A DNA stretch of 64,000 bases from Agarivorans sp. TSD2052 (lineage in GTDB: Bacteria; Pseudomonadota; Gammaproteobacteria; Enterobacterales; Celerinatantimonadaceae), in contig NZ_CP096670.1 of assembly GCF_023238625.1 (NCBI RefSeq), positions 4,112,001 through 4,176,000 on the forward strand, read 5' to 3'. The position numbers and the translations under genes were made by a program. Each line of letters begins with the position of its first letter. The stretch's first letter is position 1. Below the pieces are notes generated by a model. That model was not told the origin of the DNA. It saw only the letters and a list, made by a program, of their open reading frames with translations, and did not search any database. Positions 50,481 to 62,912 of the stretch are shown piece after piece.

Positions 50481-50503
50481 TAAAACACCCCCTACAAGGG
50501 GTG
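50481..50503 (-). terminator. Terminator overlapping the end of the DUF1349 gene
   Basis: CACCCC (50486-50491) and GGGGTG (50498-50503) form a 6-base GC stem with TTTTA on the minus exit. The stop codon of the gene lies inside the loop. Confidence 0.65.
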
Positions 50504-51115
50504 AGAGCGCCATAAACAACTTGAGAGATGCAGCTGCTCAAAACAGGCGGTAAATGATGAATCTATCGGACTACAGGCGTATAAACCACACTTAATCGTG
50601 TGTTTAGCAGGCGCTGGCGGATCACCTTGTTCTGCTTGAGTTTCCCCTAAGAGGTGTAAATGAAACACCCGCATTTGCTGATAGTGTTGGCCATCTTGAG
50701 AATACTCGATCAAAAAATCAGGCCCACGGCGACTTAAGCGATACCAAATATGTTGCGGGGTGACAATGTCGGTGGTGGCCCAATCTGAATAGCCTAAATT
50801 AGTCACTACCGATCCTAACCGCGATAGCGCTGAAGTCTCAAATTCTATTGATGCCTTAAACCAGTTGTCGCTATCGAGATAGATAATCACCCCAGCCTGA
50901 TCAAACTGCTGCTGATAGTTAAAACTGACTTTTACGCTAAGACTAAAATTGTCCTGTTGTTCTATGAGTAAAGCGGGCGCATTGTCATTACGAAAACCAT
51001 AATAAGAGCGCTGCCAAAGATCAGTATGTGGTTCAGTCGTCAGCTGCAGTTGCTGCTGGTCTAATAGAAACTGTTTGGGTGGGTTTATCCACTGCGCATT
51101 CGCGAATGCCTTCAT
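50492..51115 (-). CDS. DUF1349 (YesU-like) beta-sandwich protein
   Basis: 207 residues from the ATG at 51115 with AAGGACG upstream. A concanavalin-like beta sandwich with the family motif FDQAGVIIYLDSDNWFKASIE at about 75-95 (split by strands) and a later YSQDGQHYQQMR. The family is linked to carbohydrate use, but no activity is proven. It follows the GNAT gene by 12 bases, so the two form one unit. Confidence 0.85.
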   Translation of the reverse strand: MKAFANAQWINPPKQFLLDQQQLQLTTEPHTDLWQRSYYGFRNDNAPALLIEQQDNFSLSVKVSFNYQQQFDQAGVIIYLDSDNWFKASIEFETSALSRLGSVVTNLGYSDWATTDIVTPQHIWYRLSRRGPDFLIEYSQDGQHYQQMRVFHLHLLGETQAEQGDPPAPAKHTIKCGLYACSPIDSSFTACFEQLHLSSCLWRSHPL

Positions 51116-51127
51116 CAATTAACGTCC

Positions 51128-52237: not shown

Positions 52238-53068
52238 TTAGCCTTTCACAGCACCCGCTGTTAAGCCGTCAATCAGCTTACGTGAGGTCATAACAAACAA
52301 GATCATCAGTGGTACTACCGCAATTGCTGCACCGGCACAAATTGCGCCCCAAGGAACCTGACCAGTACCTTGTAGTGCTCGTAGTGCGAGTGGCACGGTG
52401 AACATCTTCATGTCATTCATTACCACCAATGGGCCCATGAAGTTGTTCCATTGACCAATGAAGGTAATCAAACCAAGCGTACCAAATGCTGGAGTAATAA
52501 GTGGAACCACTACACGCCAGTAAATAGCAAACTCGTTACAACCGTCCATACGTGCCGCTTCAATTAGCTCTTTAGGAATCGCGCTAGAGATAAACTGACG
52601 CATCATAAAGATACCCATTGCTCCACAAGCCATTGGAATGTAAAGCGCACGTGGTTGGTTCATCCACTCGAGCTTAGACATAATCAATGCCGTTGGAATC
52701 ATGCCTAAGAATGGTGGTAGTAACATGGTGCCCATGATTAACACGAACATAATGTTGCGACCTTTAAACTCAAACAGAGCGAAGGCATAACCGGCTAGTG
52801 AACAGAAGAATAAGTTTAATACTGTAGTGATTAAGGCTACGTAGAAACTCAAACCAATGTTGTGCCAGAAGTACGGTAGTGCATCTAAAAGAATACCAAC
52901 GTTGTTTACAAACTCTCCGCCAAACCATACTGGTGGTGGCACCGATAGAATCGATGAGTTGGTATGCGACGCAAATACAAACATGAAGTAGAACGGCGCA
53001 AGCATTATTATCGCGCCCATCCCCACTATAAAGTACGCAATTAAATGGCTTTTAGTAATTTTATTCAT
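52238..53068 (-). CDS. Sugar ABC transporter permease (MalG-like)
   Basis: 276 residues, six transmembrane helices, with the EAA loop EAARMDGCNEFAIYWRVVVPL at about 166-186 that docks the ATPase. MalG-type permease of the CUT1 group, pairing with the MalF-like permease encoded 9 bases upstream. The GH52 beta-xylosidase in this locus points to xylo-oligosaccharides as cargo. Last gene of the importer operon. Confidence 0.93.
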   Translation of the reverse strand: MNKITKSHLIAYFIVGMGAIIMLAPFYFMFVFASHTNSSILSVPPPVWFGGEFVNNVGILLDALPYFWHNIGLSFYVALITTVLNLFFCSLAGYAFALFEFKGRNIMFVLIMGTMLLPPFLGMIPTALIMSKLEWMNQPRALYIPMACGAMGIFMMRQFISSAIPKELIEAARMDGCNEFAIYWRVVVPLITPAFGTLGLITFIGQWNNFMGPLVVMNDMKMFTVPLALRALQGTGQVPWGAICAGAAIAVVPLMILFVMTSRKLIDGLTAGAVKG

Positions 53069-53077
53069 GATTAAGTC

Positions 53078-54073
53078 CTACTTCTTCTCACCAAGTAATT
53101 TGTTGTTGCCCCAGGTGAGGAAAGCAATTAGAGCGAACAGAATCCAAGACACTGCTGACGCCGTACCAAAGTCACCTTCAACAAATGCTGTAATATACAT
53201 GTGCATTGCTGCAGTTTTACCCGCTTGCTCTAGGCCACCACTACCACCGGTAATAATGAACGGTTCTTCGAACAACTGTAAGTTACCAATAATGGTTAGG
53301 GTTACTGCAAAGAACATCATTGGCTTAAGCATAGGTACTGTGATGTACCAGAATTGTTGCCAACGTTTAGCGCCATCAACGGTTGCCGCTTCATAAAGAT
53401 CTTTAGGAATAGTCTGCATTGCAGAGAGGTACAATACGGTGTTCCAACCCACATAGCGCCAGAACACAACAAAGGCGATCATCGTCTTAGTATATTCAGG
53501 ACGGTTCCAGTCAATATTTGCGGTTGGGAATAGCCAAGATAAAGGCTGAATATCACCGAATATTGTCCAGTTACCCGCCGACGTAAACAGCATATTAATC
53601 ATGCCGAAATCGCGAGAGAATAAGGTAGTGAATACCAAAGAAATAGCCACAGACGAGGTAATAAACGGCAGGAAGTACATGCCGATAACCGTGTTACGGC
53701 TACGTTTAAAGCTGGTATGTAAGAAATACGCTAATGGAATAGCTACTACGTGCTGCGGGATACCGGCAGCAAGAGCGATCCACATCGTATTGAAAACTGA
53801 TTTTTGAAACCAATCATCGGTCAATGTGAAGGTAAAGTTCTCAATGCCTACCCACTCCATTGCCGCTAGGCCGGAGGCTGGCTCCCAATAGTGGAAAGAT
53901 AAAAACAATGAAAATAGTAATGGGAACAACCCAAAAACAGCAAAAATAACGAAGAATGGACTAACAAATAAGTAAGGAGCCCACTTATAGCCACTAGCGT
54001 TTAGTCGCTGCTTTAGGGTCCGCTTTCTTATTTTGGTTACTGGTGGTCTTACGGCAGACTCGACAGAAGACAT
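53078..54073 (-). CDS. Sugar ABC transporter permease (MalF-like)
   Basis: 331 residues from the ATG at 54073, which has GGGAG upstream; the frame continues to 54109 without need. Six to seven transmembrane helices with the EAA loop YEAATVDGAKRWQQFWYITVP at about 226-246. MalF-type CUT1 permease. Between the binding-protein gene and the MalG-like gene, so all three are cotranscribed. Confidence 0.93.
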   Translation of the reverse strand: MSSVESAVRPPVTKIRKRTLKQRLNASGYKWAPYLFVSPFFVIFAVFGLFPLLFSLFLSFHYWEPASGLAAMEWVGIENFTFTLTDDWFQKSVFNTMWIALAAGIPQHVVAIPLAYFLHTSFKRSRNTVIGMYFLPFITSSVAISLVFTTLFSRDFGMINMLFTSAGNWTIFGDIQPLSWLFPTANIDWNRPEYTKTMIAFVVFWRYVGWNTVLYLSAMQTIPKDLYEAATVDGAKRWQQFWYITVPMLKPMMFFAVTLTIIGNLQLFEEPFIITGGSGGLEQAGKTAAMHMYITAFVEGDFGTASAVSWILFALIAFLTWGNNKLLGEKK

Positions 54074-54128
54074 CTTTAACTCCCGACAAAAGGAAAAGAG
54101 AGGGAGCAAGCTCCCTCAGGATTTAAAA

Positions 54129-55388
54129 TTAACGTCTAGCGCGACGCTTGATTTGTTTCTCAGCTTCAGCTAACGCTGCATCAATGTTCTCATCACGTTC
54201 TAATACACCTTCTAGTGCATCGTTGATGATTTGTTCAGCAACTGGATCATGCTTATGCACGTCTAATGCTGGAATGCGGTCAGCAGATTTTTTCCACTCT
54301 ACGCGAGCCACTTGGCCACCTAGGTAAGGAATAGGCTGGTTAATGAAATCATCATTTTGAGCTTCAATTAATGCTGGGAAAGCGTCTAAATCACGGAACG
54401 CAGCAATTTGCATTTCTTTGTTCATTGTCATGAACTTAATGAACTCCCATGCTTCTGCTTTGTTTTGTGCTTTCTTAGGAATGGCGTAGAAAGAACCACC
54501 CCAACTTGCATAAGTACCACCTGGTAGTGCAGCTGCACGCCATAGACCTTTACTGTCTGGAGCAATCCAGTTGTTCAAGTGACCGCCTAACCAAGCACCC
54601 ATCATTTGAGAAGCGATAGTGCCGCGACGTAGACCTTCAGTCCACTCAGAGCTCCAAGCACCCACTTGCGCATCAATACCTGCATCACGAACAGCTTTAG
54701 CTAAACGGAATGCTTCTTTGAAGCGGTCGTTGTTAACAGTGATGTTGTTGTCTGAATCAAAGTAGATACCTTGACCATCTTCAAGACCACTACGGATCAC
54801 AACGTCTTTAATATCCACTGCGCTAGCCACTAAGTAAGAGCCAGTCGTTTCTTTAATTTTCTTACCTGCAGCGATGAAAGAATCCCAGTCTTTAATTAGG
54901 TCTTCTTGCGTTACGCCCGCTTTGGTAAAGATATCTTCACGGTAGAACAACGCACCAGGACCGATATCAGCTGGAATAGCTGCTAGTGTACCGGTACCGC
55001 CAGTGGCTAGTGGCACAGTAAATTTCGAGAATAATTTTTCGTATTGTGCAGCGCTGTATGGAGCAGCACGTAAATCTTCTAAACCACCAGAAGAAGCAAA
55101 ACGGCCGATGTAACCATATTCGATACCCATAACATCAGGTAGGTTACCGCCAGTTGCTAACGCTGTGGTCATTGCATTGTGGTGATCTCCGTAAGCCAAA
55201 GATACCAACTTAATTTCTACTTCTGGATGAAGCTTTTTATATAAAGGAATGGCTGACTGTACCGCTAGGTCAAAACTTGGGAATGAAGCTACAGTCAGAG
55301 TAGTTTTAGCGAATGCCGACGTTGCGGTTAACGCAAGTGTGGCACCTAAAGCTAGAGCTACCGTTCCAATTTTCTTTTTATTAAACAT
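54129..55388 (-). CDS. Oligosaccharide-binding protein of the ABC importer (SBP family 1)
   Basis: 419 residues with a clear signal peptide (cut after SAFA). The mature protein is a family 1 solute-binding protein of the MalE/UgpB type (GNLPDVMGIEYGYIGRF near 80; WEFIKFMTMNKEMQIAAF near 330). An AGGAG ribosome binding site sits seven bases before the ATG. The cargo is inferred to be xylo-oligosaccharides because the locus contains GH52 and a XylR-like regulator. It follows the ATPase gene after an 88-base gap with a hairpin. Confidence 0.92.
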   Translation of the reverse strand: MFNKKKIGTVALALGATLALTATSAFAKTTLTVASFPSFDLAVQSAIPLYKKLHPEVEIKLVSLAYGDHHNAMTTALATGGNLPDVMGIEYGYIGRFASSGGLEDLRAAPYSAAQYEKLFSKFTVPLATGGTGTLAAIPADIGPGALFYREDIFTKAGVTQEDLIKDWDSFIAAGKKIKETTGSYLVASAVDIKDVVIRSGLEDGQGIYFDSDNNITVNNDRFKEAFRLAKAVRDAGIDAQVGAWSSEWTEGLRRGTIASQMMGAWLGGHLNNWIAPDSKGLWRAAALPGGTYASWGGSFYAIPKKAQNKAEAWEFIKFMTMNKEMQIAAFRDLDAFPALIEAQNDDFINQPIPYLGGQVARVEWKKSADRIPALDVHKHDPVAEQIINDALEGVLERDENIDAALAEAEKQIKRRARR

Positions 55389-55444
55389 CCTATTCTCCTA
55401 AGTACATGAACTTTATTATTATTCAATGTCGCAGTTGGGTAGTA

Positions 55445-55464
55445 CGCCTAAAACCTTTTAGGCG
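55445..55464 (-). promoter_or_regulatory. Intercistronic hairpin between the ATPase and binding-protein genes
   Basis: CGCCTAAAA (55445-55453) and TTTTAGGCG (55456-55464) form a perfect 9-base repeat around two bases. No T-tract follows. Such hairpins between operon genes can stabilise the downstream mRNA, giving more binding protein than ATPase, as in mal operons. Confidence 0.5.
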
Positions 55465-55476
55465 CTTGGAAGCAAA

Positions 55477-56580
55477 CTAGTTCAATTGTGGCAATATTGC
55501 TTTGCCAGTTTCATTATTAAACAAGTGGATCCGCGAAATATCGAAGAACAACTCCACTTTACCTTGCATCTCTGCGTTTACATCATCTGCAATGGCAACT
55601 TCTGCTATGAAACGTGCGCCGTCTAACTCGCACTGCACATGATAGGTTGACCCCAATAATTCAACGCCCACAACAGTGGCCAAGACGTTTCCGATAGTGT
55701 CTGACTCAATAGAGCGTTTAGTTAGGTATAAGTCACTTGGACGAATCCCCAAGGTACAAACCAACTCATCTTCTGCGTAAGATGCAGGTAAATCGATATG
55801 TTGGTCTGAGAAAACTAGGCTTGAGGTCGTACCTAGTTTTTTAATAGTGGCCGGAATCATATTCATCTCTGGCGCACCAATAAACGAAGCAACAAACTTA
55901 TTAGCTGGCTCTTCGAAAATTTCTTTAGGTGTTCCTACCTGCTCAATGTAACCATCTTTCAAAATCACAATCCGGTCTGCTAAAGTCATGGCTTCAACTT
56001 GGTCGTGGGTTACATACAACGTGGTAGTACCTAATTTGTCGTGCAAAGTTTTGATTTCTGCACGCATAGAGCCACGCAATTTAGCGTCTAAGTTTGATAA
56101 GGGCTCATCGAATAAGAATACTTCTGGTGTGCGAACCATTGCACGACCCATTGCTACACGCTGGCGTTGACCACCCGATAGCTCTTTAGGCTTGCGGTCC
56201 ATCAGTGGCGTAAGCTCCAACATGTCGGCAGCATATTTAACGCGCTTGGCGATTTCAGGTTTTGGAACGCCGGTCATCTTCAAACCAAACGCAATGTTTT
56301 GCTCAACACTCATATGTGGGTACAAAGCGTAGCTTTGAAACACCATTGCAATGTTACGTTCCATTGGGTGCAGGTCATTCACTAGCTCGTCAGCGATGAA
56401 AATTTCACCATCTGAAATATCTTCTAAACCAGCAAGCATTCTTAAAGTGGTTGATTTACCACAACCAGAAGGGCCAAGTAACACGACAAACTCACCATCT
56501 TGAATGTGTAAGTCGAAGCTTTTTACCACTTCGGTTTTACCAAAGCGTTTTTTCAAATTGTTAAAAGTAACTGCTGCCAT
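55477..56580 (-). CDS. MsmX/MalK/UgpC-type sugar ABC ATPase
   Basis: 367 residues from the ATG at 56580; the extra 17 residues to 56631 are not needed. Walker A GPSGCGKSTT at about 37-46, signature LSGGQRQRVAMGRAMVR near 134, Walker B VFLFDEPLSNLDA near 157, H-loop TLYVTHDQVEAM, and a C-terminal OB-fold regulatory domain (about 240-367). First gene of the importer operon; its promoter region contains the shared LacI-type box. Confidence 0.94.
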   Translation of the reverse strand: MAAVTFNNLKKRFGKTEVVKSFDLHIQDGEFVVLLGPSGCGKSTTLRMLAGLEDISDGEIFIADELVNDLHPMERNIAMVFQSYALYPHMSVEQNIAFGLKMTGVPKPEIAKRVKYAADMLELTPLMDRKPKELSGGQRQRVAMGRAMVRTPEVFLFDEPLSNLDAKLRGSMRAEIKTLHDKLGTTTLYVTHDQVEAMTLADRIVILKDGYIEQVGTPKEIFEEPANKFVASFIGAPEMNMIPATIKKLGTTSSLVFSDQHIDLPASYAEDELVCTLGIRPSDLYLTKRSIESDTIGNVLATVVGVELLGSTYHVQCELDGARFIAEVAIADDVNAEMQGKVELFFDISRIHLFNNETGKAILPQLN

Positions 56581-56903
56581 GATGTATCGTTTCCATAAGT
56601 TTAAATGTGGAGAAGCGTTGACACGAAACAAGAAAAAAAATTCTATTTCACCACTTTCGTGTAAGCGCTTTCTTGGAACTAACTTTAGCTAAGCCTGAAA
56701 AGGTCTTCAAACTAATAAAGGTTAAGATTTGAGACGTGTCATAAAAAAAGCCACTATCATGACAATTAGCAATTATTAAACTATATAACGTAATGCGATA
56801 GTCACGAAACCACTAGCGATAAGGCTTAGCGAAGATTTTAGAAACTCAAAAAAATATCAACGGCGTTGTCTTGCTAGTAACAATTAATTAGCCGTTTATG
56901 TTT
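56581..56903. promoter_or_regulatory. Control region of the importer operon
   Basis: 323 bases with no gene. A LacI-type box TGTAAGCGCTTTC starts at 56660, about 80 bases upstream of the ATPase start. 68 bases further upstream (56728-56746) lies the second motif TTTGAG-N4-GTCATAAAA. The same pair occurs upstream of the GH52 gene. The part near 56850-56903 is the 3' end of the regulator gene's transcript; no clear terminator was seen there. Confidence 0.7.
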
Positions 56904-58007
56904 TCACGCAAACTTTTTCCGGTACTGATTTGGCGTCATTTCCATTTCCTGGCGAAATAGATAATACAGGTAGTGTTGATTTGAGAAGCCCGCAGCATCG
57001 GCAATTGCATCAACCGAGGAATTTGTAGTGGTAAGTTGTTGCTTTGCAAATTCCATTCGAACTTCGTGTAATTGTTGATGCACGGTTTTTCCAAGAATTT
57101 GTTTGAAGCGTGTTTCAAGAGTTTTGCGAGATACCGCACAATAGTCTACAACCTGAGCGACTTTAATTCGGCGGTGAAAGTTACTGTTTAGGAAGAACAA
57201 AGCCTTGGTAATAAGGGGATCGGTGGGAGCGGCAAGGTCGGCCGAGGCACCACTAACAATCTCTACGGCAGGCACCAATATTTCGCGCGCAGGTTTTCCG
57301 TCAATCTGTTCTTGCAACAAACGCACTGCTTGCTCTCCAATTTGCTGAGTGGGTAATACCGCTGAGCACAAAGAAAGAGGCGATAATGCACTTTCGGTTG
57401 GATCGGCATCTACGCCAATAATCGAATAATGCCCTGGTACACTAATGCCCTGATCATGGCACAAACTAGCGAATTGACGCGCTTGAGTATCTGAAGCGGC
57501 TAACACCCCCACTTGCTGCTCAGGTTTGGTGAGTTCTGGAAGGCTTAACTCCAACCACTCTAATTTGTATTTTAGTGCCAACTTAGCCAGAGCATTTTTG
57601 CGTTCTTTCACCCAAGGAGCAGAAAAAGCGGGCACTCCTCCAAAGAAAGAGACACGACGAATGCCTCTCGCCAAGAATGACTGCACGATAAGTTCAACAA
57701 TGGCATAACTATCAGGGCTAACTCGCGCAAAATTGCGATCAGGTAATAGATTTAAACGTGAACCTGATAACGCTACCAAGGGAAGAGAGAGATCTTTACA
57801 AAACTGCGGTACGCCCAATTTATCGAAATCGGCAATCACTCCGCAAAACCGATCTAATGTGATCAGCTTAGCCTCAGCAATGGTCATTACTTCTGGCTGC
57901 ATCCAATGAGATAATGGACAGCTATTACTAGTCACTCCCTTTAAGATTTCTCTGTCATAGGGGTGTTTTACGTCGAGCAACAATAAAACTGCATTGCGTT
58001 CTCGCAT
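56904..58007 (-). CDS. xylR: XylR-like AraC-family regulator with sugar-sensor domain
   Basis: 367 residues. Residues about 1-260 form a periplasmic-binding-protein-like sensor of the XylR (E. coli) type (ADFDKLGVPQFCKDLSLPLVA near 59-79; IIGVDADPTESALSPLSLCS near 194-213). Residues about 265-367 are two AraC-type helix-turn-helix motifs ending SNQHYLYYLFRQEMEMTPNQYRKKF, split across helices. Predicted cytoplasmic xylose or xylo-oligosaccharide-responsive activator of the flanking importer and xylosidase genes. It is separated from the GH52 gene by a terminator, so it has its own promoter. Confidence 0.9.
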   Translation of the reverse strand: MRERNAVLLLLDVKHPYDREILKGVTSNSCPLSHWMQPEVMTIAEAKLITLDRFCGVIADFDKLGVPQFCKDLSLPLVALSGSRLNLLPDRNFARVSPDSYAIVELIVQSFLARGIRRVSFFGGVPAFSAPWVKERKNALAKLALKYKLEWLELSLPELTKPEQQVGVLAASDTQARQFASLCHDQGISVPGHYSIIGVDADPTESALSPLSLCSAVLPTQQIGEQAVRLLQEQIDGKPAREILVPAVEIVSGASADLAAPTDPLITKALFFLNSNFHRRIKVAQVVDYCAVSRKTLETRFKQILGKTVHQQLHEVRMEFAKQQLTTTNSSVDAIADAAGFSNQHYLYYLFRQEMEMTPNQYRKKFA

Positions 58008-58174: not shown

Positions 58175-60259
58175 CTATTTTTCATCTAACCATAAGATGT
58201 TGGTCACACATCGAGGATAATACAAGCTACCAATTGGCTTACCGGAGCTGAATTGATCACAACACGCATGTTTACTGGCACCTTCGGTTTGCCAGCGTTG
58301 GTGAGCGGCATCAGCCTCTACGCTAAAGGCCTCAGGAATATTTAAAATTTCTCGAGCAACATACTGATTCAAAAATATTTTACTTGCCCAAGAATTATCA
58401 GCGGTAGAAGACAGCTTCCATGCGCCATCTGGATATAAGCAGTATTCATCATTTAACACATATTTTAGGTGTGATTTTAGAATTTTAATGTAGCTAGCGT
58501 AAGGCCCCGTTTCTGAAACGGCCTCTGTTAAGCCCATCTGATAAGGATAAACTAAGGCTTCAATCGCTGGGATAATGGCACTTTTTGAGTGTCCATCTAA
58601 TACCGCTGGTACATAGCCTAACTCTTGATCAAAACTCTCTGTTAACTTATCAGCACAGCGTTTTGCCGCTTGTAGAGCAATAGCAGCGTGCTCTGTTTCG
58701 CCTAATTGATTGAGCACCTCTGCAATCGCTAAGTAAGCCGCCCAACTTTTCCCTGCTAGGTAAATATTGCCCCGAGCTTGGCCAAGGCTATGGTCTAAAG
58801 AATCATAGGTGGTAATTTCTCCCCCTTGCTCGGTTCTCGCTGATTCGAAGCTCATGATTCCATCACGTAAAGCTGGCTCGGGATTATCTCGGTTTAACAG
58901 CGATTGTAAACCGTCGATCAGGGTACCACGCTGCTCAGTGGCAAAAGCGCGGTCTTCTGTTTTGCTGATGTATAAGCCACAACACAATACCCAGTTAGTT
59001 AGCTGCTCATAGGTCATATGACTAAAACAAAGTCTGTCTAAACCCGCCATTTCGTAAGAGCTTTCTCCCTTAGGGCTCCAATTATTAGACACTCCCATAT
59101 CATGGGTAAATGACAAGCCACCGCTGAAATTAAGCTCGGGATTAGCGGGGTCAAAAATCTCATCATAGAAACTATATTGAGTTAAAAACTGCTCAAGCGT
59201 GTTCTTCACTGTCCAAGGGTTTTTCTTCAATTCAAAGAACAGCATATCTACGGTTAGGTCGAGGGTATTCATCATCAAATACTCGCCCTCATTGACCACC
59301 CAAACAGATTGGGTGCCGTCAAATAGCCACTGGGTTGAACCATAATAACTGCGAGTAGCATGCGCGATTAAATACTGTTGATGGGCGTTTAATGAACTGG
59401 CTAATAGCTCTTTATCGGCGCGCTCTGCGATGGCGGCGTAACTATCGTAATGACGTAATGCATAAGCAAGTACATCGTTTAAGCCTGTAAAGTGCTGGGT
59501 GTAGTAATACTGCATTGCGCGGTTAAAGGTTACGTTACCGTCTAAATAAAAGCCTAAAGCTAAACGAACCGTGACTTTTTCACCGGCTTTCACATCAATC
59601 ATCACACCAGCGGTTGGGCCTAGCATGAAACACTCGTTGTTGCCCATTTTACTCAAAGCACTTTGTACCGAAAAATGACTAAATGCGCGGGTATGTTTGC
59701 TGTTGCTTGCCAGACCAATATTGTTGCGACACGTCACCCCAACCATACCATTTGCATCACCATCAAGCAGCTTGTTCCAGCGTAATTCTTCTCCCTGCAA
59801 AGCAAAAAAGCCGGTCCAGTCTTTATCGCTAGTATTATCAAGCGTGAGCTCTACATATACCGCAGGGCAGCTGGCCTGTTTAAGCAATTGATGCTGAGCC
59901 AAAGCAGGATCGGGAATATCAAAAAACGGGCTCAGCACTTTAAGGCTAATTCCTGGAGCAGAAAATGTATCGCTCGCCCAGCGGTAATCACGCTCTACCT
60001 CTGAAAAAGTGCGTTCGGTGAGTGTTGAGCTGTCATCTTTTTGAACATAACGCTCACTTTGATCATTAGCGCCTTTGTAAAATGGAAAACTATTTACCAC
60101 ACCGTCACCATCTTGGTAGCCGATGAAGATATTGCCTTCGTAAGGAGCTCCTAGCTCTAAACCCATTCCTCCGTGGTCGCCATGCTCACCAAAGGTAAAA
60201 GAGGCTAATGCGCCCATTGGCGAGTGATGAGCATGAAAAAACTGCTGATTATGTTGCAT
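58175..60259 (-). CDS. GH52 beta-xylosidase
   Basis: 694 residues from the ATG at 60259 (AGGAG seven bases upstream); a longer frame to 60292 would add 11 residues. No signal peptide, so it acts in the cytoplasm on imported xylo-oligosaccharides, releasing xylose with retention. It matches the GH52 layout end to end: FFNAHHSP-like start (here FFHAHHSPMGALASF), WVVNEGEYLMMNTLDLTVD at about 320-338, SFTHDMGV near 383, ITTYDSLDHSLGQARGN near 482, and the closing YYPRCVTNILWLDE. By motif alignment the nucleophile and acid/base of GH52 (E335 and D495 in the Geobacillus enzyme) correspond to about E326 and D486. GH52 is a small, almost purely beta-xylosidase family. Confidence 0.93.
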   Translation of the reverse strand: MQHNQQFFHAHHSPMGALASFTFGEHGDHGGMGLELGAPYEGNIFIGYQDGDGVVNSFPFYKGANDQSERYVQKDDSSTLTERTFSEVERDYRWASDTFSAPGISLKVLSPFFDIPDPALAQHQLLKQASCPAVYVELTLDNTSDKDWTGFFALQGEELRWNKLLDGDANGMVGVTCRNNIGLASNSKHTRAFSHFSVQSALSKMGNNECFMLGPTAGVMIDVKAGEKVTVRLALGFYLDGNVTFNRAMQYYYTQHFTGLNDVLAYALRHYDSYAAIAERADKELLASSLNAHQQYLIAHATRSYYGSTQWLFDGTQSVWVVNEGEYLMMNTLDLTVDMLFFELKKNPWTVKNTLEQFLTQYSFYDEIFDPANPELNFSGGLSFTHDMGVSNNWSPKGESSYEMAGLDRLCFSHMTYEQLTNWVLCCGLYISKTEDRAFATEQRGTLIDGLQSLLNRDNPEPALRDGIMSFESARTEQGGEITTYDSLDHSLGQARGNIYLAGKSWAAYLAIAEVLNQLGETEHAAIALQAAKRCADKLTESFDQELGYVPAVLDGHSKSAIIPAIEALVYPYQMGLTEAVSETGPYASYIKILKSHLKYVLNDEYCLYPDGAWKLSSTADNSWASKIFLNQYVAREILNIPEAFSVEADAAHQRWQTEGASKHACCDQFSSGKPIGSLYYPRCVTNILWLDEK

Positions 60260-60420
60260 AACAACTCCTGGGATTGAAGAAACAGCGCACACGCGCCGCC
60301 AAATTGGATTGATTTGCGCCTATCAAAAGAGTGTAAGCGCTTTCACATGAATTCAATCTACCCAAGGCGAGTGTTTGATTCAAAGGAATATAATGGAAGT
60401 TTTGAGTTAAGTCATAAAAT
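60260..60420. promoter_or_regulatory. Control region of the GH52 gene
   Basis: LacI-type palindrome TGTAAGCGCTTTCACA at 60332-60347, about 73 bases upstream of the start. The second motif TTTGAG-N4-GTCATAAAA is at 60401-60419, 69 bases further upstream. The arrangement matches the importer operon promoter. Between them the sequence is unrelated, so the two motifs stand out as separately conserved. Confidence 0.7.
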
Positions 60421-60483: not shown

Positions 60484-60517
60484 ATAAAAAAACTCCTCGC
60501 AGAAAGGAACGAGGAGT
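60484..60517 (-). terminator. Terminator of the small carbohydrate-binding protein operon
   Basis: ACTCCTCG (60492-60499) and CGAGGAGT (60510-60517) with a 10-base loop; the minus exit is a run of seven T residues. It is about 117 bases past the stop at 60635. Confidence 0.82.
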
Positions 60518-60634: not shown

Positions 60635-61144
60635 CTAGTTCATGGATTTCAGGCTAATGTTTTTAAAGGTATACGTTACACCTTGATCAGCGCCACCAGC
60701 GAAGAAAGCAAACGCGGCTTTGCTGTCACTTTTTGGCATTTTGAATTGGAAACTAAAGGTTTGAGACGCGCTGTTAACACTCACATCTTCAGCATAATAA
60801 GTGGCGTAATCACCAGAGTCTTTTTGTACGATAATGGTTAATGGACTTTTAGCACTGGCGCTTACTTCAGCGGTAATTTGGTAGTTCTGGCCTTTTTCAA
60901 GGTTCACTTTTGGGTGCTTTAATTGAATATGCCAAGGATTACTGGCTTTTTCTTCTACGGTTACCGTAGCGGTGTCGCCATTAAAGGAAAAATTACCTTT
61001 ACCGTCGCCCCAACCGTCAACGCCCGCATTGACCTCTTGCCATTTTTTGCCATTGTCTAATTTAATATCTACATTGGCAGCCTGTGACACCGATGCTACC
61101 GAGAATAAGCTAAATGCTAAGGCTAGAGATGTTAGCAGTTTCAT
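60635..61144 (-). CDS. Secreted stand-alone carbohydrate-binding-like protein
   Basis: 169 residues with an ordinary signal peptide (MKLLTSLALAFSLFSVASVSQA). The mature part (about 147 residues) is a single beta-sandwich like CBM4/9-type modules: GWGDGKGNFSF, KASNPWHIQLKHP, QNYQITAEVSA, and a closing GVTYTFKNISLKS. No catalytic domain is attached. It is paralogous to the lipoprotein encoded 39 bases upstream. A role in holding xylan fragments in the periplasm or outside the cell is inference from the locus. An AAGGAAA ribosome binding site is present. Confidence 0.75.
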   Translation of the reverse strand: MKLLTSLALAFSLFSVASVSQAANVDIKLDNGKKWQEVNAGVDGWGDGKGNFSFNGDTATVTVEEKASNPWHIQLKHPKVNLEKGQNYQITAEVSASAKSPLTIIVQKDSGDYATYYAEDVSVNSASQTFSFQFKMPKSDSKAAFAFFAGGADQGVTYTFKNISLKSMN

Positions 61145-61183
61145 AATATTTTCCTTTTAAATAACGCTTAAGGTTTGAGATAA

Positions 61184-61735
61184 CTAATAGGTCGAATTCA
61201 ACTTAATGTTACGTAAGCTATAGCTCACACCTTCTTCACCGTCACCAAACATGATTGAAAAAGTCCCCTTTCTCTCATCATTAGGCATAGTAAAGTCATA
61301 AGTGAATACTTGGTTTTCAGTGCTTACTGTTTCTGAACGATAAAAATAAGTCACGTAATCGCCATAATTTTGTTGCACCGCCACTACCATCAAGCTTTCT
61401 TGACTGGCCGAGGCTTCAACGGTTAATTCGTAGTGCATATCTTCAACTAAAGCCACAGGGCGTTTTAATTGAATATGCCAAGGATTACTGGCTTTCTTTC
61501 TGATTTTCACATTAGCTTGCTCGTTCGCTAAGCTAAATTTACCGACTCCGTCACCCCAACCTTGGGTGCCCGCGCTGACTTTGTCCCAGCCTTTTCCGTC
61601 ATTGAGAGTGTAGGTAACCATTAACGGAATGGCGAATTGATCTTTTTTGCTGCTATCTCCGGATGTTCCAGTACTGCCACAAGCCACTAAGAAACCTGAA
61701 GAAATGGCAACAAACAACACAAAAAAACGTTTCAT
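61184..61735 (-). CDS. Lipoprotein with carbohydrate-binding-like domain
   Basis: 183 residues; the ATG at 61735 is preferred to one at 61741 because AAGGA then has normal spacing. Lipobox LVAC puts the lipidated Cys at residue 19. The mature part, after a short Gly/Ser linker, repeats the fold of the next gene: GWGDGVGKFSL, the identical KASNPWHIQL, GDYVTYFY, and GVSYSLRNIKL. Probably anchored in the outer membrane. Ligand unknown; the locus suggests xylan or xylo-oligosaccharides. Confidence 0.75.
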   Translation of the reverse strand: MKRFFVLFVAISSGFLVACGSTGTSGDSSKKDQFAIPLMVTYTLNDGKGWDKVSAGTQGWGDGVGKFSLANEQANVKIRKKASNPWHIQLKRPVALVEDMHYELTVEASASQESLMVVAVQQNYGDYVTYFYRSETVSTENQVFTYDFTMPNDERKGTFSIMFGDGEEGVSYSLRNIKLNSTY

Positions 61736-61776
61736 TTTCATATCCTTATGCGCCTTTATTCCAAGTTAAAGACAAA

Positions 61777-61805
61777 TAGGCCGCTAAAAAACATTTAGCG
61801 GCCTA
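61777..61805 (-). promoter_or_regulatory. Intercistronic hairpin in the lipoprotein operon
   Basis: A perfect 12-base stem (TAGGCCGCTAAA with its complement) and a 5-base loop, 15 bases past the stop of the upstream lipoprotein gene. The minus exit is TTTGTC, a weak T-tract, so it may be a partial terminator or an mRNA stabiliser that sets the ratio of the three proteins. Confidence 0.6.
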
Positions 61806-61819
61806 CTGTTAGCTATTGA

Positions 61820-62518
61820 TTAGCCACAAGTCCACTCAACCGCGCCTTCAGGGCTCATAGTTGCGTCTTTCTCAAGCTTCACAGTTCCTAATTCATAGGT
61901 AACTGATTCGTTGCGAATGTCCAAACGGAATACTTCGTTCACCTTAGTGATATCAAAGTTGCCATTCTCATCGGCGCTGAGACAGCTAACTGGCACAGTG
62001 ATTGTTTTCCAGCCTTCGCCTTCTAAGTCAGCTAATTGATCTTGGCCAAAGTAGTAGGTATTTCGATCAAGGTAATCCGTCGCACCACCGCTAGTTTGCA
62101 TTACGATTTGGTGAGCATAGTTTCCTGACGCAGTAGCATTAGTTACGTTTAGATCAAATACATAAATACCAGCTTGATAGTCAGTCATATCCATTTGGGT
62201 ATCACTACCAACAATGAAATACGCTTCACCGTTGCCAAATGTTTCAACTTCCCAAACGTATTCTTCACCGTTAGCACTTGGAGAAACCTTAAGACCAGCT
62301 TGGTCATAAGTTCCATCTTTCGCTAACTCTGTCTTTTGATAATCAGGTGCGTAACCTACTTTAAGTGTAAAACTACCGGTCGCTCCATCATCAATAATAA
62401 CTAAAGCTTCATCTGCTGGCGGTGGCGGTATTACTGGCGTACCCTCGTCATTGGCACAACCGGCCATGGTTACTGCAGCGGCTAACATTGATACTTTAAA
62501 TATTGTGTTGTTAAACAT
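61820..62518 (-). CDS. Lipoprotein with galactose-binding-like beta-sandwich
   Basis: 232 residues. Lipobox MAGC places the lipidated Cys at residue 21, then a proline-rich spacer (TPVIPPPPADE) and a beta-sandwich of about 190 residues. The pattern (GYAPDYQKTELAKDGTYDQAG, then GWKTITVPVSCL) resembles the ExoP-type galactose-binding-like domain found at the end of some glucan hydrolases, but here without a hydrolase. First gene of a three-gene operon with the two paralogous binding-like proteins. AGGGAGAG ribosome binding site. The ExoP resemblance is by eye only. Confidence 0.7.
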   Translation of the reverse strand: MFNNTIFKVSMLAAAVTMAGCANDEGTPVIPPPPADEALVIIDDGATGSFTLKVGYAPDYQKTELAKDGTYDQAGLKVSPSANGEEYVWEVETFGNGEAYFIVGSDTQMDMTDYQAGIYVFDLNVTNATASGNYAHQIVMQTSGGATDYLDRNTYYFGQDQLADLEGEGWKTITVPVSCLSADENGNFDITKVNEVFRLDIRNESVTYELGTVKLEKDATMSPEGAVEWTCG

Positions 62519-62912
62519 TGTTCTCTCCCTATGAAATCCCTTTGAAGGCTCTTGACCCGAGTTGCCCTAGACGCCTTTTACACTTTTATCGTAAGGCGCA
62601 AGCAGGCGCATGGAAACGACAGAGATCACAATGTAAGCGCTATCACGAAATAAAATTCACTTTAAATGACTAAGCGATATTTAGCAAAAGCTTGGAGAGA
62701 TTTGTTAAAAAACAAAGATTTTAACCATAAGATACTGAAAAAGAAGGATAATTGATGTTAATAATATGTTCAACAAAAGACAAAAGTGAGATCTCGCCTG
62801 CAATAACCATGAATAGCTTGAGAATAAAAATTCACAATGAATTTACCATATATCACAACACAGATAAAAGTAAGTGGCTATATTTCATAAAATAAACAAA
62901 TTAAGGTGCAAA
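62519..62912. promoter_or_regulatory. Control region of the lipoprotein operon
   Basis: A long AT-rich gap. The LacI-type box TGTAAGCGCTATCACGA is at 62632-62648, about 115 bases upstream of the first lipoprotein start. At 62701, exactly 69 bases from the box, a degenerate form of the second motif is seen (TTTG, then CA at the matching position). The rest (about 62740-62910) is AT-rich and holds no gene that I can support. Confidence 0.6.

Follow-up and report, generated by a model that had tools for sequence, protein, structure and literature searches.

The surface glycan-binding proteins (SGBPs) of Bacteroidota are encoded together with a SusC/SusD pair, and BtSGBP-B from Bacteroides thetaiotaomicron works beside these two partners. 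The holding of glycans by Gram-negative bacteria without SusC/SusD is, in our judgement, less well described than the Bacteroidota case. The locus considered here lies in a window of 64,000 nucleotides from the single-contig 4.6 Mb genome of Agarivorans sp. TSD2052, and comprises three small genes, here named A, B, and C, beside a gene for a GH52 beta-xylosidase. The reading we favor, with a probability of roughly 0.55, takes A-B-C as a set of envelope proteins that capture glycans without an attached enzyme and are run within a local xylan regulon. At the level of sequence, the locus shows three proteins with export signals and no enzyme attached, an operator word common to GH52 and an ATP-binding cassette (ABC) importer, retention of the set across the genus, and a hairpin after A.

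The three genes are open reading frames on the minus strand of the window, transcribed in the order A, B, C, and a Pfam domain scan detected no catalytic domain in any of them. This agrees with the first-pass annotation of the same DNA, which had described three small exported binding-like proteins without an enzyme, two of them paralogues made as a soluble and an anchored copy. These paralogues are B and C, which are 41% identical and have the segments KASNPWHIQLK, GWGDG, and GDYxTY in common. By reading, C carries a plain signal peptide (ending in VSQAAN), and B a lipobox (FLVAC). Both proteins exceed the cut-off of the Pfam family CBM_4_9 (25.9 bits), C with 50 bits (5.2e-13) and B with 29.3 bits (1.3e-6). 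Part of the identity in the KASNPWHIQLK stretch may reflect recent copying rather than constraint, since its DNA is identical at 32/33 bases between the window copies. Gene conversion of this stretch was considered, with 10/11 codons identical against 33/58 in the rest of the window copy; it is not claimed, because the second clusters found in relatives show the pattern less clearly.

The fold of C could be modeled with a predicted local distance difference test (pLDDT) score of 87.4, giving the CBM4 beta-jelly-roll. Ranks 1-9 by Z score are CBM4 modules or engineered CBM4-2 variants, among the latter presumably 3jxs. The nearest solved structure is the laminarin-binding CBM4 1GUI (Z 19.7, 142 residues, 1.8 A), followed by the CBM4 modules of CbhA and CelK (Z 17.5), variants of the xylan-binding CBM4-2 module of a xylanase (Z about 17), and BtSGBP-B (Z 13.9). 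Aligned to the family profile, 1GUI has its WHIQ at the place of the WHIQ of the family and its DPWTNYF opposite GDYATYF. The fold lists also hold Cry toxins (Foldseek) and, at Z 12-13, domains of Vip3, meprin, and phage tail-spike proteins; kinship with these was rejected, and the likeness is read as a common jelly roll.

Protein A belongs to a different family. It holds a lipobox (VTMAGC) followed by a Pro-rich linker, both recognized by reading, and two conserved Cys residues (179 and 231) besides the lipid Cys. Its domain resembles Exop_C (PF18559), which is the third domain of ExoP-type GH3 exo-glucanases. The window copy scores 23.1 bits (7.2e-5), below the cut-off of 26.1. Across the A family, 11 of 12 proteins give an Exop_C match with an E value of at most 0.1, the best reaching 3e-12, and the homologue of G008, a genome of another genus of the family, reaches 42.5 bits. 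The initial description of a third, unrelated lipoprotein is supported, and the galactose-binding-like, Exop_C-like domain is a candidate assignment for it, the window copy remaining under the cut-off. A PDB sequence search with the A family returned no match at E 0.1.

The candidate regulatory signal of the locus is a LacI-type operator-like word. Two mismatch-free copies of the pattern TGTAAGCGCT[T/A]TCAC are present in the window, one preceding A and the other GH52. Allowing up to two mismatches raises the number of matches to five, where 0.42 would be expected; a single palindrome, counted once per strand, accounts for two of these. Conservation was measured as the best 16-base match in the 300 bases upstream of each gene, a measure by which random 300-base chunks of the window, true sites included, reach at least 13/16 in 40 of 3000 cases. 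The site before GH52 scores at least 14/16 and that before the importer ATPase 13/16 in all seven genus genomes; the site before A scores at least 13/16 in five of the seven, with 11 in G003 and G005. Upstream regions of the XylR-type regulator gene and of C give at most 11/16 (none of seven and none of six, respectively, reach 13), and the A genes of second clusters only 10-11/16. Across the genome, a looser pattern was found in 11 places, against 0 for a control pattern, and two of these are the A and GH52 sites. Of the other nine, one is near a LacI gene with GH1, one precedes a GH16 gene, one precedes an alpha-amylase gene, and three lie at the gap between GH116 and LamB-MalM; at the remaining three no sugar-use gene was recognized, two of them being without a family scan. 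The three sites at the GH116 to LamB-MalM gap form a dense cluster in it and at its edges (L019:5565-6415). Because the word also precedes other sugar-gene sets, it may have more than one LacI-type reader.

A, B, and C probably form one transcript unit. The hairpin after the A stop codon folds at -27.6 kcal/mol in the window, and none of 200 dinucleotide shuffles is as good. A stem is present in the A-B gaps of 10/10 clusters, several of them of unrelated sequence, with z values of -1.5 to -5.0 against mononucleotide shuffles; it is weakest in G006, where 27/200 dinucleotide shuffles are equally good. No stem beyond chance was found in the nine B-C gaps, six of which fold at -0.3 to -1.6 kcal/mol, and three, from second clusters, at -1.4 to -5.8 kcal/mol (20 to 146 of 200 shuffles as good). 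As the T run after the window A-B hairpin is poor, the hairpin is read as a probable message-protecting or attenuating element. The terminator scan as a whole was near chance (8 matches against 6.4 in shuffles), so that folding and conserved position were relied on instead, and a promoter scan was uninformative, with 6 matches and thus fewer than the 12.5 in shuffles. Co-transcription of A-B-C with GH52 is not favored, since a terminator-like hairpin lies between them and an M4-peptidase gene intervenes in four relatives. The earlier suggestion of a co-regulated set beside GH52 is supported by the probable transcript unit and by the operator word common to GH52 and the importer. The features of the locus are collected in Table 1.

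Table 1. Features of the A-B-C locus in the window, and of related loci in other Agarivorans genomes
Feature	Position	Strand	Description or basis
Gene A	61820..62518	-	232 aa; exported lipoprotein; Exop_C-like domain alone, Pro-rich linker
Gene B	61184..61741	-	185 aa; lipoprotein, single CBM_4_9 domain
Gene C	60635..61144	-	169 aa; CBM_4_9 domain, plain signal peptide; periplasmic or secreted
LacI-type operator-like site upstream of A-B-C (TGTAAGCGCTATCAC)	62632..62646	+	exact pattern match
Operator word upstream of GH52 (TGTAAGCGCTTTCAC)	60332..60346	+	exact pattern match
Operator word, two mismatches, upstream of ABC importer (TGTAAGCGCTTTCTT)	56660..56674	+	pattern match
Intercistronic hairpin A/B	61775..61807	-	stem in 10/10 A-B gaps
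Terminator-like hairpin with long T run, after C, before GH52	60492..60517	-	folding
GH52 beta-xylosidase (functional neighbor)	58175..60292	-	family scan, nearest solved structures; no signal peptide seen by reading
XylR-type regulator	56904..58007	-	AraC helix-turn-helix plus periplasmic-binding domain; match to XylR N-terminal domain below the cut-off
ABC sugar importer: ATPase, solute-binding protein, two permeases	52238..56631	-	ATPase named by reading
M4-peptidase-PKD genes in relatives	L068:6423-8096, L069:6679-8358, L072:12674-14359, L073:6419-8101		
Transposase genes in relatives	L070:7618-8442, L070:10317-11576, L071:10496-11638		

Downstream of A-B-C are found GH52, then the XylR-type regulator, and then the ABC importer. 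The GH52 protein is closest to solved beta-xylosidases and the regulator to XylR of Escherichia coli. The solute-binding protein does not settle the sugar, because the solved chains closest to it bind various sugars, one of these chains being named as cellobiose-binding. Elsewhere in the genome there are two GH10 genes with intact frames, as well as a GH10 fragment (G000:C1:2457629-2457838) that covers some 64 positions of the profile, contains an in-frame stop, and is possibly a decayed third xylanase. Beyond the importer genes, at 50492-51118 of the window, lies a gene for a DUF1349 protein with a weaker match to GH43_C2, a beta-xylosidase C-terminal domain, which may belong to the xylan locus.

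Within Agarivorans the set is well kept. A and B are adjacent in all seven genus genomes and C is present in six, being missing from G003; a second tandem A-B-C cluster occurs in G002, G005, and G006. GH52, XylR, and the importer ATPase accompany A-B in 7/7 genomes, the remaining importer genes being not always within the stretch read in relatives. A, B, and C diverge more between genomes than GH52 and malK, and non-synonymous divergence (dN) is well below synonymous divergence (dS) wherever dS could be computed. Other genes also stand in this neighborhood in relatives: an opposite-strand M4-peptidase-PKD gene with a lipobox lies between C and GH52 in G001, G002, G005, and G006, though not in the window, and transposase genes border A-B in G003, which lacks C, and are also found between C and GH52 in G004.

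Outside the genus few members of the families were found, in searches of the order and class in which the top few candidates of each genome were scored. Among 369 genomes of the class, the own genome was the sole one with A, at E 1e-5, and also the sole one with B/C-like sequences. Among 394 genomes of the order, nine gave A at 1e-10 and 16 gave B/C-like sequences at 1e-8, nine of these 16 belonging to the own family. The other seven genomes of the order comprise five with only long frames (772-835 aa) and two, G246 and G256, with free short ones. A scan of a named genome collection gave six loci, one from Agarivorans and five distant (24-30% identity) in Ruminococcus, Clostridiales, and Oscillospiraceae bins.

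The genus g3, of the same family as Agarivorans, is represented by G008 and G009. In both, an A-like two-domain lipoprotein adjoins a GH8 enzyme, which in G008 is closest to Rex (reducing-end xylose-releasing exo-oligoxylanases), and a GH10-CBM9 gene lies 2.8 kb (G008) or 1.6 kb (G009) from the A-like gene. The C-like gene of G008 stands instead among housekeeping genes (SelO, DNA polymerase I, a GTPase, cytochrome c, a methyltransferase, YihI, and a HemN-type protein), and the gene order around that of G009 is the same, judged by frame starts. A more distant A-like gene, of G005, adjoins isocitrate lyase. Homologues beside unrelated enzymes, which the first-pass annotation had taken as a possible objection, are thus absent for A-B within the genus and in part present elsewhere, as these C-like and A-like genes illustrate. 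G246 and G256, from another family of the order, hold three free CBM_4_9 lipoproteins of 176-179 aa (lipobox by reading), one beside a CBM4-GH9 protein and two beside FGE-sulfatase-type proteins. In the tree these three group with GH9-attached CBM4 modules and B/C form a separate clade, long branches meeting there; their place in the GH9-attached clade suggests a release probably independent from that of B/C. At L122:9105-11413, in G246, a CBM4 piece and the rest of a GH9 are in separate frames near two XylR-like regulator genes, possibly a broken gene.

These surroundings also bear on whether A-B-C has any role in nutrition. The proteins could be relic CBM modules freed from enzymes and kept as surface proteins for other ends, such as algal adhesion or as decoys, as might be suspected from the C-like gene of g3 among housekeeping genes and from the divergence of A, B, and C exceeding that of GH52 and malK. 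The retention of A-B in seven of seven genomes, the duplication of the set in three, the shared operator word, and the low dN relative to dS make this explanation very improbable.

The identity of the ligand is harder to assign. The family of B and C and the fold of C back glycan binding but cannot choose the sugar, because CBM4 modules bind xylan and several beta-glucans; a passage of PMC3975366 names xylan, amorphous cellulose, mixed-linkage glucan, and beta-1,3-glucan. An explanation that we consider possible but rather unlikely keeps the same envelope capture and makes the ligand a beta-glucan (laminarin, mixed-linkage glucan, or amorphous cellulose), the xylan locus being a mere neighbor. 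It would account for the best PDB match of the B/C profile, which is the beta-1,3-glucan binder 1GUI (8.9e-16), with cellulosomal CBM4 also matched, for the operator word, whose copies before LacI-GH1, GH116, LamB-MalM, and GH16 genes connect the locus with beta-glucan genes in addition to xylan, and for a GH9 of the own genome, whose N-terminus is the one further CBM4 relative of B/C detected there. It would not account for the linkage with GH52, XylR, and the importer ATPase, constant in 7/7 genomes, nor for the g3 A-like protein beside GH8 and near GH10, a context favoring xylan; in addition, the CBM4-2 structures from xylanase fit C nearly as well as 1GUI does. Xylan as substrate keeps the support of the g3 locus and loses some to the beta-glucan-binding kin and to the operator word. 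A recent release of B/C from the GH9 of the own genome was rejected, as B/C form a separate, fully supported clade, with the long branches as a caution. Beta-1,3-xylan as a target has no support, since CBM31, known from beta-1,3-xylan enzymes, was absent from the own-genome search; it is present in 2/7 genus genomes, G002 and G006 (L140-L147, frames of 585 to 1800 aa).

The matches to 1GUI and to GH9, and the presence of the operator word before other sugar genes, to which alpha-amylase has to be added, weigh against the capture set within a xylan regulon, and so do several other observations. The operator before A is lost or degraded in two of the seven genus genomes, second clusters are without it, and no operator site was found in the GH10 regions of the own genome (L138, L139). 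The solved relatives nearest to the importer solute-binding protein give no pointer to xylan. The fold of A relies on a weak profile match, because its structure model, built from a three-row alignment, failed (pLDDT 33). The A protein of G003 has Asp at position +2 after the lipid Cys, a residue which in the E. coli rule counters outer-membrane sorting, while A and B of the window do not.

A different placement would keep A, B, and C inside the outer membrane, where they would supply the solute-binding protein from a periplasmic oligosaccharide buffer instead of catching polymer outside. A periplasm-facing position is common among gammaproteobacterial lipoproteins, and MalM may play an oligosaccharide-holding role in maltose systems. 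A MalM-type protein is indeed encoded beside LamB near the same operator word, and the plain signal peptide of C would suit this location. Exposure is suggested instead by the Pro-rich spacer of A and by the allele-like variation that A shows among relatives, and the 1GUI module (TmCBM4-2), according to a passage of PMC3975366, holds its chain by the middle, a grip suited to polymer. Periplasmic holding is for these reasons regarded as improbable.

The variability of A is marked between close relatives. Between G001 and G002, A is 83% identical with a dS of 1.22, against 97-98% for B and C (dS 0.21 and 0.14) and 97% for GH52 (0.41); between G002 and G006 the values are 57% and 1.19 for A, 93% (0.29) for B, 95% (0.50) for C, and 97.5% (0.52) for GH52. 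In 100-column windows, drawn for five of the six pairs among G001, G002, G004, and G006, the drop in identity starts near the lipid Cys codon and ends near the A stop, adjacent windows being 84-100% identical. It is weaker in pairs with G005, and the more distant window genome does not show it in its pairs. At fourfold sites, A differs from all other genes in 6/6 of the pairs among those four genomes (p <=0.02) and from B and C together in 5/6 (p <0.05), the pairs being not independent and the p values uncorrected for the number of tests. The raised silent divergence points to replacement by divergent alleles, and not only to fast protein change. In the relatives L068, L069, L071, and L073, the mature domain of A thus has the appearance of a variable cassette between conserved flanks, whose alleles seem to be exchanged. 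In the tree, the A genes from the first clusters of G003, G004, and G006 join second-cluster A genes (support 100/99, long branches). The exported M4 peptidase nearby is 95.5% identical between G001 and G002 and 88% between G002 and G006. Another exported neighbor, an SBP3-like protein, is 66% identical between G001 and G002, its frame starts there being uncertain, and A is therefore not the sole variable gene.

A tentative extension is that A is a surface glycan-binding lipoprotein with a recombining cassette domain, in a SusD-free A-B-C capture system that feeds the ABC importer. The signal peptide, the intergenic hairpin, and B-C would stay near constant between some Agarivorans strains, and the mature A domain would be swapped among divergent alleles, perhaps also with the tandem copy. 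Were this so, the exchange might shift the range of ligands, or help the cells evade phages or grazers for which A serves as a handle, and the domain could serve to test whether surface sugar-binding proteins evolve like antigens.

The capture set within a xylan regulon would work as follows. A and B, which lack Asp at +2, would sit in the outer membrane, A held out on its Pro-rich linker, and C would be the soluble copy, either periplasmic or secreted. The three proteins would bind xylan or long xylo-oligosaccharides set free by the two GH10 xylanases, and the captured chains would be handed to the periplasmic binding protein and the importer, to be cut to xylose by GH52 inside the cell. The hairpin after A might protect or attenuate the message, leaving A in excess over B and C, and the AraC-type XylR together with a LacI-type repressor would set expression by substrate. 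A small regulated enzyme-free set beside an ABC importer would make a simple model in which single genes are readily knocked out, and a free CBM4 pair with one anchored and one soluble member allows a clean test of what anchoring adds.

Among known systems, the SGBPs of Bacteroidota are the closest in kind. By their sequence features A and B match them as probable exported, enzyme-free lipoproteins with a CBM-like domain in a sugar-use locus. A search for SusD_RagB, which matched the Bacteroides genome among 14 controls, found it in none of the seven genus genomes, and A-B-C is for that reason not filed as an SGBP. The initial comparison to SGBPs without SusCD accordingly stands for SusD; SusC was not searched. 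A close single case is BtSGBP-B (7KWB/7KWC), also enzyme-free, with a domain related to B/C by sequence (3e-4) as well as by fold; a protein of that name bound laminarins and yeast beta-glucan, as a passage of PMC7157763 relates. It differs in being a multi-domain protein of about 420 residues, whereas B and C are single-domain proteins beside an ABC importer. A Bacteroidota cellulose system is similar as well, in that its outer-membrane, enzyme-free, CBM-like domains are required for polymer use, but it has two domains and acts on cellulose. Given that enzyme-free CBM-like lipoproteins are known in Bacteroidota, and that stand-alone CBM4 lipoproteins also occur in another family of the order (G246 and G256, in one case of three beside CBM4-GH9), calling the system undescribed, as was first done, is too strong, even if no title describing A-B-C appeared among the matches listed in the open-licence literature, a weak test of absence that covered titles and abstract openings. 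The Exop_C domain of ExoP-type GH3 enzymes (ExoP domain 3 is mentioned in a passage of PMC6987092) is part of an enzyme, while A is free-standing and lipidated, the window copy scoring under the cut-off. The lipoproteins of G246 and G256 resemble B and C as free CBM_4_9 proteins and differ by their GH9-attached clade. Lastly, TmCBM4-2 of laminarinase 16A (1GUI), the CBM4 modules of CbhA and CelK, and CBM4-2 of Rhodothermus Xyn10A are of the same family as B and C and have the fold of C, but they are parts of enzymes, whereas B and C stand free, each with a signal peptide of its own.

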